Source: an uncultured Brachyspira sp.
GTDB lineage: Bacteria; Spirochaetota; Brachyspiria; Brachyspirales; Brachyspiraceae
NCBI RefSeq assembly: GCF_944393015.1
Contig: NZ_CALXYQ010000001.1
Span: 124,001 to 188,000, forward strand
Reading direction: 5' to 3'
DNA length: 64,000 nucleotides
Shown here one piece after another: positions 27,527 to 57,777 of this stretch. Numbering within the stretch: the stretch's first letter is position 1; each line of letters begins with the position of its first letter. Under the pieces are notes generated by a model, which saw only the letters and a list, made by a program, of their open reading frames with translations, was not told the DNA's origin and did no database searches. The position numbers and the translations under genes were made by a program.

Positions 27527-29755
27527 ATGAGAGAAATAATCAATTTTAACACCAATTGGAAATTTACTAAAGAATGGAATGATAATATAAAAATTGAAAA
27601 ATTAAATGGAGAAAATATCACATTGCCTCATACAGTTGCTGAGATACCTCTTCATTATTTCAATGAATCAGATACTTGGCTTGTTTCAGGATATCAAAAC
27701 ATTTTTAAATATGAAAAATCAAAATTAAAAGATAAAAGGATATTAATTAACTTTGAGGGAGCTATGGCTGCTGCTGAAGTATTTATCAATGGAAAAAGTT
27801 TCGGAGAGCATAAAGGCGGATATTTACCTTTTGTATACGATATAACAGATGAATTAAAAGACGGTGAAAATATTATAGCTGTAAAACTTGATAGTACAGA
27901 AAGAGAAGATATTCCTCCTTTTGGTAATGAAATAGATTATTTATGCTATGGCGGAATATACAGAGAAGTACAAATTATTATTGTTGATAATATATCAATA
28001 GAAAATGTTATGCTTACTGGTCTTGCCAATCAAAATATAACAGGAAAAATAAGAATAAGAAACAGCAAAAAAGAAAGCATTAAAGAAACAATAGCTATTA
28101 ACTTGTATAACAGAGAATATCATATATGTGAAATAAAAAAAGAAGTAACTTTAAAAAAAGGTGAATTATTTACTGATATAAAAATAGATGAGCATATAGA
28201 TTCTGACAGAATAGAGTTATGGGATATAGATAATCCAAGACTTTATAGATTAGAAGTATCTATTCCTAGCAATGAAGATAGTTTATCTATAAAAATAGGA
28301 TTCAGAGATGCAAAATTCACTGAAAACGGATTTTACTTAAATGACAGAAGAGTAAAATTAAGAGGATTAAACAGACATCAAAGTTTCCCTTATGTTGGTT
28401 ATGCTATGCCTGAAAGAATACAAAAGAAAGATGCTGATATATTAAAATTTGATTTAGGACTTAATATAGTACGTTCTTCACACTACCCTGCTTCAAGACA
28501 TTTTTTAGACAGATGTGATGAAATAGGATTAATGGTATTTGAAGAAATTCCAGGCTGGCAGCATATAGGTGATAAAAAATGGCAGAAAGTTGCTGTGGAA
28601 AATGTTAAAGATATGATAGAAAGAGATTTTCATCATACTTCCATTATAATATGGGGTGTAAGAATAAATGAGAGTCAGGATAATCACAGCTTCTATAAAG
28701 AAACTAATAAAACAGCTCATGAACTAGATAAAACAAGACAAACAGGCGGAGTAAGATATTTAGTAGGAAGCGAGCTTTTGGAAGATGTATATACAATGAA
28801 TGATTTTAATTATGACGGTATTGCTGATCCTCTAAGAGCACAAAAATTTGTAACTAAATTAGATAAAAATGTTCCTTATATGATAACAGAATATAACGGA
28901 CATATGTTCCCTACAAAGATGCAGGACTGTGAAGAAAGATTAATAGAACATACTAAAAGACATTTTGAAATAATCAATGCTGTTGCTATAGATAATCATA
29001 TTTCAGGTTCTACAGGCTGGTGTGCTTTCGATTATCATACACATTATAATTTCGGTTCAGGAGACAGAATATGCTATCATGGTGTTTATGATATGTTTAG
29101 AAATCCTAAACTAGCTGCTTCTGCATATTCATCTCAAATGTGTACAAAAAATGAAATAATATTAGAGCCTATAACTATATACGCTAGAGGCGAAAGAGCT
29201 ATAGGAGGAATATCACCTTTAATGGTTGCCACTAATTGTGATTATGTAGAAATTTATTACAGAAATGAATTAATGGCAAAAGAATATCCGGCTACAGGAA
29301 AATATCAAGGACTAAAACATGCACCTGTTATAATAAAAATTGATGTAAATGTTCCAGGAGTAAGCGATATGGGTTGGGGTGATATGAAATTAATAGGTTA
29401 TATAGACGGTAAACCTGCTATAGAAAAAAATTATTTGAATAACCCTACTTTCAAAGGTTTGGAAGTTAAAGCAGATGATAATGAAATCAATGCTGTAAGC
29501 AGCGGCTCCACTTGGGACTCAACAAGAATAACAGTAAAAGCAGTAGATGCTATAGGAAACAGACTTCCATATATAAATGAAGCTATTACTATAGAAGTAA
29601 AAGGCTCAGGAGAATTGATAGGAAATGATAATCCTGTACTTGAAGGAGGTTATTATTCTTTCTGGGTTAAATCCAACAAAACTAAAGGAAGCATAAAAGT
29701 TACAGTAAAAAACAAAAGGGTAAAAGAAGAAACAATAGAAATAAAAGTAATATAA
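27527..29755 (+). CDS. Glycoside hydrolase family 2 (beta-galactosidase-like)
   Basis: 742 residues with the GH2 order: sugar-binding jelly-roll (1-160; FNTNWKFTKEW, TLPHTV, GGIYREVQI), Ig-like sandwich (165-265), TIM barrel (270-560) and C-terminal Ig-like domains (to 742; GSGELIGNDNP as in DUF4982/Big-type modules). Catalytic residues are visible: acid/base Glu382 in WGVRINES and nucleophile Glu455 in MITEYNGHMF; RGLNRHQ and SHYPAS are also conserved. No signal peptide, so it should act on imported oligosaccharides. Substrate (galactoside, glucuronide or other) cannot be fixed. It is followed by a hairpin array and a MarR regulator gene. Confidence 0.88.
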   Translation: MREIINFNTNWKFTKEWNDNIKIEKLNGENITLPHTVAEIPLHYFNESDTWLVSGYQNIFKYEKSKLKDKRILINFEGAMAAAEVFINGKSFGEHKGGYLPFVYDITDELKDGENIIAVKLDSTEREDIPPFGNEIDYLCYGGIYREVQIIIVDNISIENVMLTGLANQNITGKIRIRNSKKESIKETIAINLYNREYHICEIKKEVTLKKGELFTDIKIDEHIDSDRIELWDIDNPRLYRLEVSIPSNEDSLSIKIGFRDAKFTENGFYLNDRRVKLRGLNRHQSFPYVGYAMPERIQKKDADILKFDLGLNIVRSSHYPASRHFLDRCDEIGLMVFEEIPGWQHIGDKKWQKVAVENVKDMIERDFHHTSIIIWGVRINESQDNHSFYKETNKTAHELDKTRQTGGVRYLVGSELLEDVYTMNDFNYDGIADPLRAQKFVTKLDKNVPYMITEYNGHMFPTKMQDCEERLIEHTKRHFEIINAVAIDNHISGSTGWCAFDYHTHYNFGSGDRICYHGVYDMFRNPKLAASAYSSQMCTKNEIILEPITIYARGERAIGGISPLMVATNCDYVEIYYRNELMAKEYPATGKYQGLKHAPVIIKIDVNVPGVSDMGWGDMKLIGYIDGKPAIEKNYLNNPTFKGLEVKADDNEINAVSSGSTWDSTRITVKAVDAIGNRLPYINEAITIEVKGSGELIGNDNPVLEGGYYSFWVKSNKTKGSIKVTVKNKRVKEETIEIKVI

Positions 29756-29756
29756 T

Positions 29757-29975
29757 AAAATAAAAATTGTGGGCATCTGCTAAGTTTACTTGGCAGACAC
29801 TCTCAGCGAACAATTTTTATGATAATAACAAAATAAAAATTGTGAGCGTCTGCTAAGTTTACTTGGCAGACACTCTCAGCGAACAATTTTTATGATAATA
29901 ACAAAATAAAAATTGTGAGCGTCTGCTAAGTTTACTTGGCAGACACTCTCAGCGAACAATTTTTATGATAATAAT
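29757..29975 (+). repeat. Three tandem 73-bp units, each a large hairpin
   Basis: Units start at 29757, 29830 and 29903. Units 2 and 3 are identical except at the very end; unit 1 differs at two bases (GGGCAT for GAGCGT). Each unit folds as ATAAAAATTGT / ACAATTTTTAT (11 bp), an internal TGAG/CTCA, and GTCTGC / GCAGAC (ATCTGC in unit 1) closing a TAAGTTTACTTG loop. The array begins right after the GH2 stop codon. With the terminator behind it, it fills the gap 29756-30092. Confidence 0.92.
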
Positions 29976-29980
29976 AAATA

Positions 29981-30020
29981 AAAAAAGAGTTTGAGATGCA
30001 AAATATCAAGCTCTTTTTTT
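29981..30020. terminator. Bidirectional-type terminator
   Basis: AAAAAAGAGTTTG / CAAGCTCTTTTTT stem (one G-T pair), with a T-run on each strand side. It ends the GH2/hairpin-array transcript before marR. Confidence 0.85.
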
Positions 30021-30092: not shown

Positions 30093-30533
30093 ATGAAAAA
30101 TGAAGATATAAAAAAATATATGGAAGTCATATATGATTTTTGGTATACTTCTAATAGATTTTATTATCTATGGGCTAAGCAGTACGGTATTACAGATTTA
30201 GCTTTATTCAGTTTATTTATAATCTATAATAGCGGAGAATGCGTACAGAACACTATCACAGAAAAACTATCTGTTCCAAAGCAGACTGTATGTTCTATAT
30301 TGGATAATTTCGAGAAGAAAGGCTATATCAAAAAAAAGATTAACCCAAAAGATAAAAGAAACAGATTAATAAGTTTAACAAAAAAAGGTCTTACATTTGC
30401 AGAACCTATATTAAAAGAATTAGAAAAATTAGATATGCAAATGCTTAAATGTCTTACGGAAGATGAAATCAAAAATTATGTAGAGCCTCAGAAAAAACTT
30501 ATGACATTTATGGAAAATTATTTTAATAATTAA
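30093..30533 (+). CDS. MarR family transcriptional regulator
   Basis: 146 residues with the winged-helix order of MarR proteins: YGITDLALFSLFIIYNSGE, TITEKLSVPKQTVCSILDNFEKKGYIKK (recognition helix; given in two parts here as TITEKLSVPKQTV and CSILDNFEKKGYI), and the wing NPKDKRNRLISLTKKG with the conserved D.R. Such proteins are dimeric repressors released by small ligands. It precedes a cysteine-cluster protein and a radical-SAM-like gene (gaps 61 and 16 nt), which it may control. No operator palindrome was identified. Confidence 0.92.
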   Translation: MKNEDIKKYMEVIYDFWYTSNRFYYLWAKQYGITDLALFSLFIIYNSGECVQNTITEKLSVPKQTVCSILDNFEKKGYIKKKINPKDKRNRLISLTKKGLTFAEPILKELEKLDMQMLKCLTEDEIKNYVEPQKKLMTFMENYFNN

Positions 30534-30594: not shown

Positions 30595-31035
30595 TTGAAA
30601 GTTATACCTTCAGATAGTTTATTAAAAAATAGAAAAGAAAAAGTAAGTGAAAAATTATGTGCTGACTGCAATTCATTATGCTGTCATGATTTGGTTATGG
30701 AAATATCTCCGCCTAAAAATGAAAGCGAACTTAATACATTAAAATGGTATTTGCATTTCAGACATTCATTTATATTTATATACGAAAATACTTGGTACCA
30801 TATGATAAGAAGCGAATGCAGATATTTAGATAAAAAAACATATTTATGCAAAAATTATGAAAACAGAAATGAAATTTGCTCAAAACATAGCCCTCCTAAA
30901 TGTGAGAGATATGAAGAATGGTACGATGTAATATTTGATGATCAATATGAATTAGAGAAGTATGTATATGAAAATAAAATAATTAAGAAAAAATCTTCCG
31001 GCACAAAGAAGAAAGCAGCTAAAAAAACTAAATAA
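30595..31035 (+). CDS. YkgJ-type cysteine-cluster protein
   Basis: 146 residues. The N-terminal third has CADCNSLCCHDLVMEISP, and the middle has SECRYLD, YLCKNYENR and EICSKHSPPKCERYEEW, giving the CxxCxxxCC and later cysteines typical of YkgJ/UPF0153 proteins, thought to bind Zn or Fe. It ends in a basic tail (KKKSSGTKKKAAKKTK). The start is TTG: AAGGCGG lies 7 nt before it, and the first in-frame ATG would remove the cysteine cluster. It is 61 nt downstream of the marR-type gene. The function of the family is unknown. Confidence 0.78.
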   Translation: MKVIPSDSLLKNRKEKVSEKLCADCNSLCCHDLVMEISPPKNESELNTLKWYLHFRHSFIFIYENTWYHMIRSECRYLDKKTYLCKNYENRNEICSKHSPPKCERYEEWYDVIFDDQYELEKYVYENKIIKKKSSGTKKKAAKKTK

Positions 31036-31051
31036 TATATTTTAATAAAAG

Positions 31052-32515
31052 ATGAAAAAAAAAGAAATTAAAAAAGTTTGTATAACATATCCGCCTTTTG
31101 AATATAATAATGGATATCCATTAATATCTTTAAATAGACAATTTCAATGGTTAAAAAATCCTTCGTATGCCTACCCTATGCTTCCGTCTTATGCTGCTAC
31201 TTTATTAAAAAATAACGGTATTAATGTTGTGTTTTTGGATACAATAGCATCTAATATTACAACTATAGATTGGTTTAATAATATAGATGATATAGCACCC
31301 GACTTAATATTTTTTGAAGTAAAAACTCCTATAATTAATTATATTTGGGATACTATAGAAGCAATAAAAGAAAGATATGAAAATACTTATGTTGTTTTAG
31401 CAGGAGATCATGTTACTGCTTTACCTGAAGAAAGTATGGAAAAATCCAAAACTGATTTTGTATTAACAGGCGGTGATTATGATTTTCTTCTTTTAAATTT
31501 AGTTAATCATATAAATAATGGGGAAAAATTAGGTAAAGGTATATACTACAGAACTTCTAATGGAAATATAAAAAATACTGGAAAATTTGAACTTGAAGAA
31601 TCTTTAGACAGACTTCCATTTATAGATAGAAATCTTACAAACTGGAAGTTATATTCAAAAACTAATGAATATTTTAAAAAAACACCAGGCACATCTATAA
31701 TGTCCGCAAGAGGCTCTTTATATAATAATTATAACAGTAATTCTTCTAATATTCTTTTTGATAAAGTGAGAGTTAGAAACCCAATAAGTGTTATAGATGA
31801 AATAGAATATTTGAATAAAAGATATGGAATAAAAGAAGTTTTGGATACAAGTGTTTATTTTCCTACAGGAGAATGGCTTTCATTGTTTTGCGAAACTATG
31901 AAAGAAAGAAAACTCCATAAAAAAGTTTATATAGACTGTTATGTTTATCTTGGAGTATTAGAATATCAAGATTATAAAATGATGAAAAAGTCAGGGTTCA
32001 AAACAGTTATTTTTAATTTGCCTTCAGGAAATGCTAAAACTATAGAAAAATTAGGTATTACTGATAATACTATAGAAAACATTGTAGAATCCATAAAATT
32101 AGCTAAAAAAGCAGGTCTATTCATAGATATAATGATAAAAATAGGTTATCCATGGGAAACAGATGAAGATATAATAAACACATTCAATATCGTAAAAGAT
32201 TTAATGCTTAATGGATATATTAATTCTATGAATGCTTCTATTTTTGTACCATATCCTGGAACTAAATTATTCAAATATTGCGATGAAAATAATCTTATTA
32301 AAACAAAAAATTGGTTTGATTATGATATGAGAAGAAGCATTATGAAATTAGATATGGATGATGATCAAATATTTAGATATATTGAATATTTTTATAATTT
32401 ATCATTTAATCCTGGATATGTGCTTCAAAAGATAAAAAGTATAAGAGATATTTACGATATAAAATACCATATAAAATCATTTAAAAATGTGCTTTCATAC
32501 TATTTAAATGATTAA
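31052..32515 (+). CDS. B12-binding/radical-SAM-like protein lacking the cluster cysteines
   Basis: 487 residues with the fold order of cobalamin-binding radical SAM enzymes: B12-binding-like Rossmann domain (5-180; ICITYPPFEY-like start, VVLAGDHVTALPEES) and a TIM-barrel part (200-430; VIDEIEYLNKRYGIKEV, MIKIGYPWETDEDI, FVPYPGTKLFKYC). Where the family has RGC.xNC.fC, this protein has RGSLYNNYNS, so all three [4Fe-4S] cysteines are gone (Ser222, Asn226, Ser229). The GxESG motif near 325 is also changed (NLPSG). The frame is otherwise intact, so it is probably a non-catalytic relative rather than a fresh pseudogene. It is 16 nt after the YkgJ-like gene. Confidence 0.8.
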   Translation: MKKKEIKKVCITYPPFEYNNGYPLISLNRQFQWLKNPSYAYPMLPSYAATLLKNNGINVVFLDTIASNITTIDWFNNIDDIAPDLIFFEVKTPIINYIWDTIEAIKERYENTYVVLAGDHVTALPEESMEKSKTDFVLTGGDYDFLLLNLVNHINNGEKLGKGIYYRTSNGNIKNTGKFELEESLDRLPFIDRNLTNWKLYSKTNEYFKKTPGTSIMSARGSLYNNYNSNSSNILFDKVRVRNPISVIDEIEYLNKRYGIKEVLDTSVYFPTGEWLSLFCETMKERKLHKKVYIDCYVYLGVLEYQDYKMMKKSGFKTVIFNLPSGNAKTIEKLGITDNTIENIVESIKLAKKAGLFIDIMIKIGYPWETDEDIINTFNIVKDLMLNGYINSMNASIFVPYPGTKLFKYCDENNLIKTKNWFDYDMRRSIMKLDMDDDQIFRYIEYFYNLSFNPGYVLQKIKSIRDIYDIKYHIKSFKNVLSYYLND

Positions 32516-54918: not shown

Positions 54919-57777
54919 ATGAAAAAAATTCTTTCAATAATTATAATATCTATTTTTATATCATTATCATCTATATTGTTAGCACAGAATGCCGCTCCAA
55001 ATGATGAAAGAAATATTGACAGAGAATTTTATAATGCAGAAAAACTTTTCTTCCAAAAAAAATATAATTTTGCAAGAGAAGCATTTCTTTTATATTTGAA
55101 AAGAAGACCATTATCAACTAATGATATGCTTTATTATTATATAGGAGCATGCTATTTCCAAGATAAACAATATGAAAATGCTATAAATTATTATAAATTA
55201 GCATTCGATATCAATGATTCATATTCATATTGTAATAATATAGCAAACTCTTACTATCAATTAAAAAATTATGAAGATGCTTTACTTTGGTATAACAGAT
55301 CTATAGAACGTCTTCATTCCCCATATACAACTAAATTAAATCATGAAGTATTAACTAATTATACAGTTTCTCAAAATGTAGTAACAAATACAATATTTAT
55401 TTTTGATGTTAATAATACTTCTTCTAATGAATCTATAACTAATATCTCCATAGGTTCAAATGAATCATTAACAAATGAATTTATATCAACTAATATAACT
55501 GCTCCTGCTATAAATACAAATACAATATCAACAAATTTATCATCTGATACTAATGCAATATCTGATGCTATAAATAATCTAAATATTGCAAATGAAAATA
55601 TAAAAAATACCTTGGATAATACATTTACTAAACTTCCATTATTTACAAATGTAGTTATCACAAATACATATACAAATAATTATGAATTTACAAATACAAC
55701 AGTAATATTTGAAGCAAATGCTAATTTTAATTTGGAAGTGGTAAATCCTTCAGTTTCGGAAACTGCCCTTCCTCCTGATAATGTTACTAATGAAGCTGCA
55801 GCAGGAGATTCAAATACTGTTACAATGTCCACAAATTCAACTGTTACAGGATCAAGCTATGTAATAACTGAAGAAAATCCATTTACAGTAACAAATATAG
55901 TTATAATGACTAATGTTATGGATACTAATGGAAATATGGTGGAGATAAAAACTAATATAGCTTCAGTGGATGCATATAATACTTGGGCTTTATATTACAG
56001 TGCTTATCTTAATATGGGGCATACTTTCTTAGCACTTGGCGAAATAACTAATGCCGCTATATCCTATGAAATATTTTTAACTAATGTAGGAAATGATTAT
56101 TATCAAAAAGAATCTTTAGAAAGAGTTATATCTCTTATAAGAAGTAATGATACATCAATTAAATTTATTCCTTTTACTAATAATCATAGGGTAAATACAA
56201 ATAATGACGGAAGTATAACAACAGAAAATATATTCCCTAATTTTTATTATGAAAGAGAAACTATATATCCTAATGGTGTTAGAATAGTTTATGAAAATGG
56301 AAAAATAGAAAAAACTAAAATGTATTCTAATAATTATGAAGTTTCAGATACTATATATCCTTATGGAAAAAGAGAAATAGAAACAGTATTTGAAAACGGA
56401 GATAAAAGATTAGAAACATATATGATAGATAATTCAAAATCTATAAATACAAAAAATTCTAATGGAGATACATTTGAATACACTTTATACCCTGACGGTT
56501 CTTTTATAAATAGAAAAACTTTAGATAGTAATAAAGCATTTGTAGTGGAAAGATCTGACGGCTCTATCACAACAAATTATAAAGATAATAACGGAGCATT
56601 TTTCTACACTAGAAGTTTAGACGGGACAGAGGTAAAAAGAACTGAAGATAATTTTGGAAATATCACAACTGAAACAAAGAGAGTTGATGGAGCTGTTATA
56701 GTAAAAACAGAGAATCCTGACGGAAGCTATGTAGTAGTTGCAAATTATATAGACGGAAGTATAGGTACTACAACAGTAGATACAAATGGAATAAGCAATT
56801 TAAAAATAGTTTATCCGGACGGCAGAGTTGAGGAAAGAAATTCTACAGGAGCAGGTGCCGGTACATTCTCATACAATGTAAAAGCTGATGACGGAAGTAT
56901 TATAACAAAAACTTATAATGAAGACGGTTCATTTACAGTAGTAACTAAGAAGGTAGACGGCACAGTAATAACTGATACAGTTGCTGAAGATACTATAAGC
57001 GAAATAAAAATGCCTGACGGTACTACTATAAAGAGAGTAATAAGACAAGACGGCTCAAGAGAAACTACTACTCTTAACAGAGATTCAAGCACAGTAACAG
57101 AAGTAGTGGCAGCAGATTCCAGCAGTATAACTACAACTATTAAACCTAATGGCTCAAGCATAGTAGTGGTAAAAGATATACAAGGAAACACAGAAACTAC
57201 AACAACAGAGGCAGACGGAAGCACTTCAACTACAAAAACTTATACTGACGGAAGATCAACTGTCAATGAAGTGAGAGCTAACGGAGTTAGTATAGATATA
57301 GAAAATGACGGAAGAAATAAAACTACTGTGGCAAGAGATGCTGAAGGTTATGTACTAGAAATGAAGCAGTACAGAAATGAAAATCCTGAAATAACTTTAC
57401 TTGATTCTTTAGGAGAGCCTGTAGAAGCAGAGATTGCAAAAACAGTAATTAGAAGAATGGATTTAAATATAAGAGTTGAGGATATTGATAATCTTAAATT
57501 ACCTCCGCCTCCTCCTGAACCAGAACCTGTAGAAGATACAACTGTCACTGATGATACTACAGTAACTGATGATACAACTACTACTGAAGACACTACAGTT
57601 ACAGATGATACTGCAGTAACTGATGATACAGCCACTGGAGATACAACAGGAGATACTGCTGCAGATGATACTACAACTACTGGAGATACAACAGGAGATA
57701 CTGCTGCAGATGATACTACAACTACTGGAAATACAACAGGCGATACTACTACGTCACCTACCACTACAACAGAATAA
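54919..57777 (+). CDS. Large exported TPR and DG-repeat protein
   Basis: 952 residues. Signal peptide MKKILSIIIISIFISLSSILLA. Residues about 30-135 are TPR repeats (AEKLFFQKKYNFAREAFLLY, YYIGACYFQDKQYENAINYY, NSYYQLKNYEDALLWYNRS). Residues about 150-350 are Asn/Thr-rich, with many TNT and TNV steps, followed by one more TPR-like unit (MGHTFLALGEITNAAISYEI). Residues about 415-840 contain some twenty strand-turn repeats centred on DG (NEDGSFTVVTKKVDGTVI, RQDGSRETTTLNRDSS). The tail is proline-rich then an acidic Thr-rich repeat (DDTTVTDDTT type). It probably sits in the periplasm or on the surface. The architecture is unusual and the role unknown. Confidence 0.75.
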   Translation: MKKILSIIIISIFISLSSILLAQNAAPNDERNIDREFYNAEKLFFQKKYNFAREAFLLYLKRRPLSTNDMLYYYIGACYFQDKQYENAINYYKLAFDINDSYSYCNNIANSYYQLKNYEDALLWYNRSIERLHSPYTTKLNHEVLTNYTVSQNVVTNTIFIFDVNNTSSNESITNISIGSNESLTNEFISTNITAPAINTNTISTNLSSDTNAISDAINNLNIANENIKNTLDNTFTKLPLFTNVVITNTYTNNYEFTNTTVIFEANANFNLEVVNPSVSETALPPDNVTNEAAAGDSNTVTMSTNSTVTGSSYVITEENPFTVTNIVIMTNVMDTNGNMVEIKTNIASVDAYNTWALYYSAYLNMGHTFLALGEITNAAISYEIFLTNVGNDYYQKESLERVISLIRSNDTSIKFIPFTNNHRVNTNNDGSITTENIFPNFYYERETIYPNGVRIVYENGKIEKTKMYSNNYEVSDTIYPYGKREIETVFENGDKRLETYMIDNSKSINTKNSNGDTFEYTLYPDGSFINRKTLDSNKAFVVERSDGSITTNYKDNNGAFFYTRSLDGTEVKRTEDNFGNITTETKRVDGAVIVKTENPDGSYVVVANYIDGSIGTTTVDTNGISNLKIVYPDGRVEERNSTGAGAGTFSYNVKADDGSIITKTYNEDGSFTVVTKKVDGTVITDTVAEDTISEIKMPDGTTIKRVIRQDGSRETTTLNRDSSTVTEVVAADSSSITTTIKPNGSSIVVVKDIQGNTETTTTEADGSTSTTKTYTDGRSTVNEVRANGVSIDIENDGRNKTTVARDAEGYVLEMKQYRNENPEITLLDSLGEPVEAEIAKTVIRRMDLNIRVEDIDNLKLPPPPPEPEPVEDTTVTDDTTVTDDTTTTEDTTVTDDTAVTDDTATGDTTGDTAADDTTTTGDTTGDTAADDTTTTGNTTGDTTTSPTTTTE
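57637..57747 (+). repeat. 45-bp in-frame tandem repeat in the protein tail
   Basis: Two identical 45-bp units (57637-57681, 57682-57726) and a diverged partial third, encoding GDTTGDTAADDTTTT each. Identity at silent positions points to recent duplication; unit number may vary among strains. Confidence 0.88.

Follow-up and report, generated by a model that had tools for sequence, protein, structure and literature searches.

Much work has been done on the pseudoenzymes of kinase and protease families. Radical SAM enzymes usually space their cluster cysteines as C-x3-C-x2-C. The radical SAM diol-dehydratase AprD4 carries a cluster and is catalytic; it also has a B12-type domain, yet is not cobalamin-dependent. 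GenD1, GenK and Sis14, the cobalamin-dependent radical SAM methyltransferases of aminoglycosides, have been reported to use the spacing Cx4Cx2C (PMC4340712), while FliB, the flagellin lysine methyltransferase, carries a [4Fe-4S] cluster, uses SAM and displays a CX4CX3CC motif (PMC8598068). A search of the open-licence literature found no cluster-less protein of the cobalamin-type radical SAM group, nor any pseudoenzyme of this group that is kept genus-wide under selection. The gene described here lies in the window, that is, the whole 64,000-nt stretch of Brachyspira DNA that was analysed, and it departs from these systems in its cluster loop and SAM site.

Results

A radical-SAM-like protein without cluster cysteines

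The gene and its recognisable parts are the following.

31052..32515, + strand: cluster-less radical-SAM-like protein, 487 aa, with a B12-binding-type domain and a radical SAM barrel (Pfam matches above curated cut-offs)
31187..31468, + strand: B12-binding-type Rossmann domain PF02310, residues 46-139 (Pfam)
31403..31435, + strand: GDHVTALPEES, conserved motif of the B12-type domain, kept (orthologue alignment)
31709..31759, + strand: former [4Fe-4S] cluster loop RGSLYNNYNSNSSNILF, residues 220-236, with the lost ligand columns S222, Y227 and N230 (alignment with RDCWHHRCTFCSW)
31847..31855, + strand: former DDTG (D266, G268) of the second barrel strand, now T266 and V268 (conserved-column comparison)
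31940..31948, + strand: former N297-M-R299 of the third barrel strand, now Y297-V-Y299 (conserved-column comparison)
32015..32029, + strand: former GLESA, SAM-site motif of the fourth barrel strand, now NLPSG (alignment)
32144..32161, + strand: GYPWET barrel landmark, residues 365-370, kept (alignment)
32249..32263, + strand: PYPGT barrel landmark, residues 400-404, kept (alignment)

An earlier note, made from the letters of the sequence, had described an open frame of 487 codons coding for a radical-SAM-like protein with a B12-binding-like domain, and both the frame and the two domains were recovered. The PF02310 match is marginal (32.3 bits against a cut-off of 32.1), whereas Radical_SAM PF04055 scores 35.6 bits against 29.5 over residues 236-379; the latter match covers profile positions 22-164 only and starts past the cysteine loop. 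PF04055 and the radical SAM structures retrieved by Foldseek place the protein in the superfamily by profile and by fold, and the N-terminal B12-binding-type domain (PF02310, with GDHVTALPEES) is that of class B, the cobalamin-binding class. Within GDHVTALPEES, residues G118, D119, H120, T122, P125 and E127 are invariant across the degenerate clade. The landmarks PYPGT and G.PWET lie where the note had seen them, and DYDMR is also kept. An AlphaFold2 model built from 15 Brachyspira sequences is weak, with a mean pLDDT of 63.6 and a pTM of 0.66. Residues 223-236, once the cluster loop, fall below a pLDDT of 50, so that the loop's shape is unreadable in the model; the first Foldseek matches of the model are AprD4, MgmA, TsrM and OxsB.

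The cluster loop reads RGSLYNNYNSNSS. Its ligand columns could be assigned because a paralogue in the same genome (L031, contig C18:3684-5126, 48% identical) has an intact loop, RDCWHHRCTFCSW (RDCWHHRCTFC), whose Cx4Cx2C motif aligns without gaps. The former ligand codons are therefore those of Ser222 (31715-31717), Tyr227 (31730-31732) and Asn230 (31739-31741). This ungapped alignment rules out a Cx3Cx2C placement of the lost cysteines: that all three are replaced, as the earlier note had it, holds, and so does Ser222, but the Asn226 and Ser229 that it named are each one residue off the true columns. The protein's four cysteines (C10, C280, C296 and C410) were considered as replacements and rejected, all lying outside the loop. 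Three of them (C10, C296 and C410) do not vary among the aligned orthologues, and C280 hardly does. In the pilosicoli group there is a cysteine at 229, off-column.

The residues replaced relative to intact relatives are C222, C227, C230, D221, D266, G268, N297, R299, G322 and E324, the last six being those of the subfamily's SAM site (DDTG, N-x-R, GLES); the altered GxESG motif mentioned in the note is the FNLPSG of the 322-327 region. The loop of the degenerate clade is itself conserved, roughly as RG[SA]xxNNYNSxSSNILF, and newly conserved residues are found both in it (N226, Y227, N228, S232, N233) and elsewhere (Y299, P324, D359, K363).

The losses were located by means of family-conserved columns, defined as those with a conservation of 90% or more across 23 intact relatives. 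In residues 1-160, the B12-type part, 39 of 52 such columns are kept and 13 lost, as against 41 kept and 42 lost among the 83 of the barrel (Fisher p=0.004). Within the barrel, the strand-top windows at the cluster and SAM site have lost 29 of 37 conserved columns and kept 8, while 38 of the 51 outside them are kept and 13 lost (Fisher p=1e-6, every column not lost being scored as kept, a value that is indicative since the windows were picked with the motifs in mind). To judge from this sequence pattern, the losses fit a protein in which SAM chemistry would be gone while the fold, and perhaps a ligand or substrate site, is retained. Radical SAM chemistry is very likely impossible for such a protein.

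The organism uses cobalamin, since a MetH-type B12 protein is encoded in its genome and one cobalamin riboswitch there scores above cut-off. Whether the cluster-less protein itself binds cobalamin is about an even bet. AprD4 illustrates that a retained B12-type domain does not prove cobalamin binding.

Conservation and selection in Brachyspira

The orthologue is present in 25 of 26 Brachyspira genomes at 54-95% identity, named species among them being B. hampsonii, B. innocens, B. alvinipulli and B. pilosicoli; it was not found in G005, whose assembly is 88% complete and split into 990 pieces. The earlier note had asked whether the replaced state is kept across the genus. It is: cysteine occupies all three columns in 0/25 orthologues as opposed to 23/23 intact relatives, and no cysteine was found in any one of the three columns among the 25. 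The cysteines by which radical SAM function is recognised are replaced by S222, Y227 and N230 or, in some orthologues, by other non-cysteine residues.

Maximum-likelihood codon models gave an omega of 0.042 for the whole gene in the degenerate clade (0.046 for the B12-type part, 0.036 for the barrel). The intact paralogue and the neighbouring PF03692 gene have lower values, 0.021 and 0.019, respectively. Pairwise Nei-Gojobori medians, from a comparison in which many pairs are at high dS, were 0.18 for the degenerate gene, 0.05 for the paralogue and 0.057 for the PF03692 gene, all well below 1. Since omega is far below 1, the cluster-less gene is not decaying. Loss of catalytic residues combined with purifying selection across species, the sequence signature of a pseudoenzyme, is thus what is found.

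Intact homologues in close relatives had been named in the note as the observation that would point to local decay. Within the genus there are none among the 25 orthologues, but genomes G074 and G148, from two sister genera, have an intact gene at the orthologous locus, which argues for an old loss followed by conservation and against a local decay.

The paralogue is found in 26/26 Brachyspira genomes, in one as a contig-edge fragment, and its cysteines are intact in all 13 genomes in which it was read. No viral relatives of it were found. Outside the order, three loci (L056, L057 and L059) have the intact gene among glycosyltransferase-like and polysaccharide genes, as judged by eye; this setting suggests, as a lead, that the ancestral substrate was a glycan. 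A separate observation concerns an intact sister group (L040-L043, L055 and L061) in which the first and second cluster cysteines are further apart, as in RGCGRSDDAPGVCSFC, the spacing reaching several tens of residues in other members, which makes for an unusual cluster motif.

A conserved cysteine-rich neighbour and further losses

Two genes precede the radical-SAM-like gene.

30093..30533, + strand: MarR-family regulator PF01047 (Pfam)
30595..31035, + strand: YkgJ-type cysteine-cluster protein PF03692, 146 aa, TTG start, ending 16 bases before the radical-SAM-like gene

Both are the neighbours that the earlier note had named, now matched to Pfam families. The MarR gene adjoins in most Brachyspira examined; in some lineages, and in the sister genera, it is not adjacent. 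The PF03692 protein (28.9 bits, cut-off 23) has 8 invariant cysteines, and its gene lies immediately upstream in 27/27 genomes of the family in which both genes were found. In G074 and G148 it stands beside an intact radical SAM partner, with loops RDCWHHKCTFC and RGCFHNKCTFC, respectively; the gene pair therefore predates the loss of the cysteines. Other Spirochaetota have PF03692 proteins at about 30% identity, and in the seven loci read there the neighbours varied, none being a consistent PF03692 partner. The structure model of the PF03692 protein was too weak for use and gave no PDB match. It is moderately likely that the window protein works with this neighbour.

No Rfam RNA, riboswitches included, scored above gathering within the window. 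Just upstream of the MarR gene, at 29752-29984, a 73-base unit that contains a strong hairpin (TGTGAGCGTCTGCTAAGT...ACTTGGCAGACACTCTCA) occurs three times in tandem; about 30 related copies, 74-100% identical, are spread across the genome, and the unit therefore looks like a dispersed palindromic repeat. Short tandem repeats with periods of 18 and 45 bases, multiples of three, occur at 57535-57747.

A cluster-less copy was also met outside Brachyspira. G066, which belongs to the genus of G074, carries a single copy (L053, G066:C53, 5485-6936), whose cluster-less loop, RYYKCNKSTNSSLP, differs from that of Brachyspira; this copy too is without D266, G268, R299, G322 and E324. The G066 and G074 loci both adjoin MazG and FlaA-like genes, four neighbours and the gene itself being 56-67% identical and a fifth neighbour 28%; given these matching neighbours, the two genes are positional orthologues. 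The G066 loop shares nothing derived with that of Brachyspira, so that, on sequence grounds, the two losses are apparently independent. The gene tree does not reject a grouping of all degenerate rows (p-AU 0.41), rows that have long branches, and the long-branch G066 copy is possibly a true decay. A PF03692 gene was not found in the 98%-complete G066 assembly; the cluster-less state therefore does not depend on pairing with it. The G026 homologue (L027/L071, G026:C19:124245-125672), from a related family of the same order, keeps its three cysteines while carrying N297T, R299F, G322C and E324F, a SAM site eroded by another route.

Discussion

The window protein is probably a pseudoenzyme of radical SAM origin that has been retained as a subunit for binding or scaffolding, probably together with the PF03692 protein. 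A functional dead enzyme is more credible than a broken gene because selection is strong and the same cysteine-rich partner accompanies the gene in every Brachyspira species that has it. The ancestor would have been a B12-type radical SAM enzyme of the Cx4Cx2C subfamily, encoded directly after the PF03692 gene. On the Brachyspira stem, all three cluster cysteines would have been lost together with the SAM-site residues, and the gene would then have remained under strong purifying selection within the two-gene unit, while the separate intact paralogue was retained elsewhere in the genome. Without a cluster, the protein should be unable to form the 5'-deoxyadenosyl radical; its most likely task would be to hold cobalamin, the substrate of the ancestral enzyme, or both, on behalf of the PF03692 partner or of another protein. 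I infer the contact with the PF03692 protein, the ligand and the biological role. Of the earlier proposal of a non-catalytic binding or sensor protein with a radical SAM enzyme as its ancestor, the non-catalytic derivation is borne out by genus-wide conservation, purifying selection and the loss of cluster and SAM residues alike, and the binding part is plausible.

A second reading, in which the protein is a repurposed enzyme whose barrel and B12-type domain run a non-radical reaction, such as polar methyl transfer from methylcobalamin, would account for the strong constraint on the barrel (omega 0.036) and for the new conserved residues of the former loop and of positions Y299, P324, D359 and K363. 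It is nevertheless unlikely, as no new catalytic motif can be recognised and the SAM-site residues are gone. Less probable still is a radical enzyme complemented in trans, the Fe-S cluster of the PF03692 partner docking over the barrel to replace the lost one. The conserved gene pairing and the 8 invariant cysteines speak for it, as does the example of FliB, a SAM-using protein with a related motif and a bound [4Fe-4S] cluster (PMC8598068). However, the partner already stands beside intact proteins in G074 and G148, and therefore did not arise as a cluster replacement; the SAM-site residues are lost too (E324P, R299Y, G322N), and G066 is cluster-less with no detectable PF03692 partner. Local decay, a pseudogene or an assembly error could explain the absence of all three cysteines and a substitution rate somewhat above that of the paralogue (omega 0.042 vs 0.021), but for Brachyspira it is refuted by an open frame and an identical loss in 25 separately assembled genomes at 54-95% identity, by an omega far below 1 with a constrained barrel, and by the kept pairing.

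The annotation 'B12-binding radical SAM protein' would be misleading for the frame at 31052-32515, and PF03692, a family of which little is known functionally, gains a conserved genetic partner. A wider view is speculative and on balance doubtful: a cluster-less, radical-SAM-derived subunit of the cobalamin type and a separate cysteine-cluster (possibly Fe-S) protein would form a two-component system that shares a reaction or a sensing task, the radical SAM cluster having been lost at least twice in the family.

Comparison with known systems

The best NCBIfam profiles, HpnJ (TIGR03471, 103 bits) and BchE (TIGR02026, 80.9 bits), match nearly the full length of the protein but score far below the equivalog cut-offs of 577.6 and 481.35 bits, respectively. 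The window protein has the domain order of these class B proteins but differs from them in lacking the cluster cysteines and SAM-site residues, and in an ancestral spacing of Cx4Cx2C. This spacing is the one shared by GenD1, GenK and Sis14 with the intact paralogues, a likeness of spacing alone, from which the window protein is set apart by its missing cysteines. AprD4 (PDB 6fd2) is the top fold match, with E 3.7e-15, TM 0.56-0.60 and 15% identity. FliB and the PF03692 partner are alike in having a related cysteine motif and 8 conserved cysteines, a likeness of motif and cysteine number; unlike FliB, the partner is a short stand-alone protein of 146 aa.

A further comparison is with the intact paralogue and the Spirochaetota relatives of the RDCWHHRCTFC family, which are mostly 42-53% identical to the window protein, equal in length and domain layout, and with which it still shares 104 family-conserved columns. 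They retain Cx4Cx2C, DDTG, CNMRFG and GLESA, all of which the window protein has lost, and of their loci that were read, only those of G074 and G148 have a PF03692 neighbour. Since the same genomes hold an intact paralogue and the sister genera hold intact orthologues beside PF03692, the family offers a natural before-and-after comparison of a radical SAM scaffold freed of its cluster.
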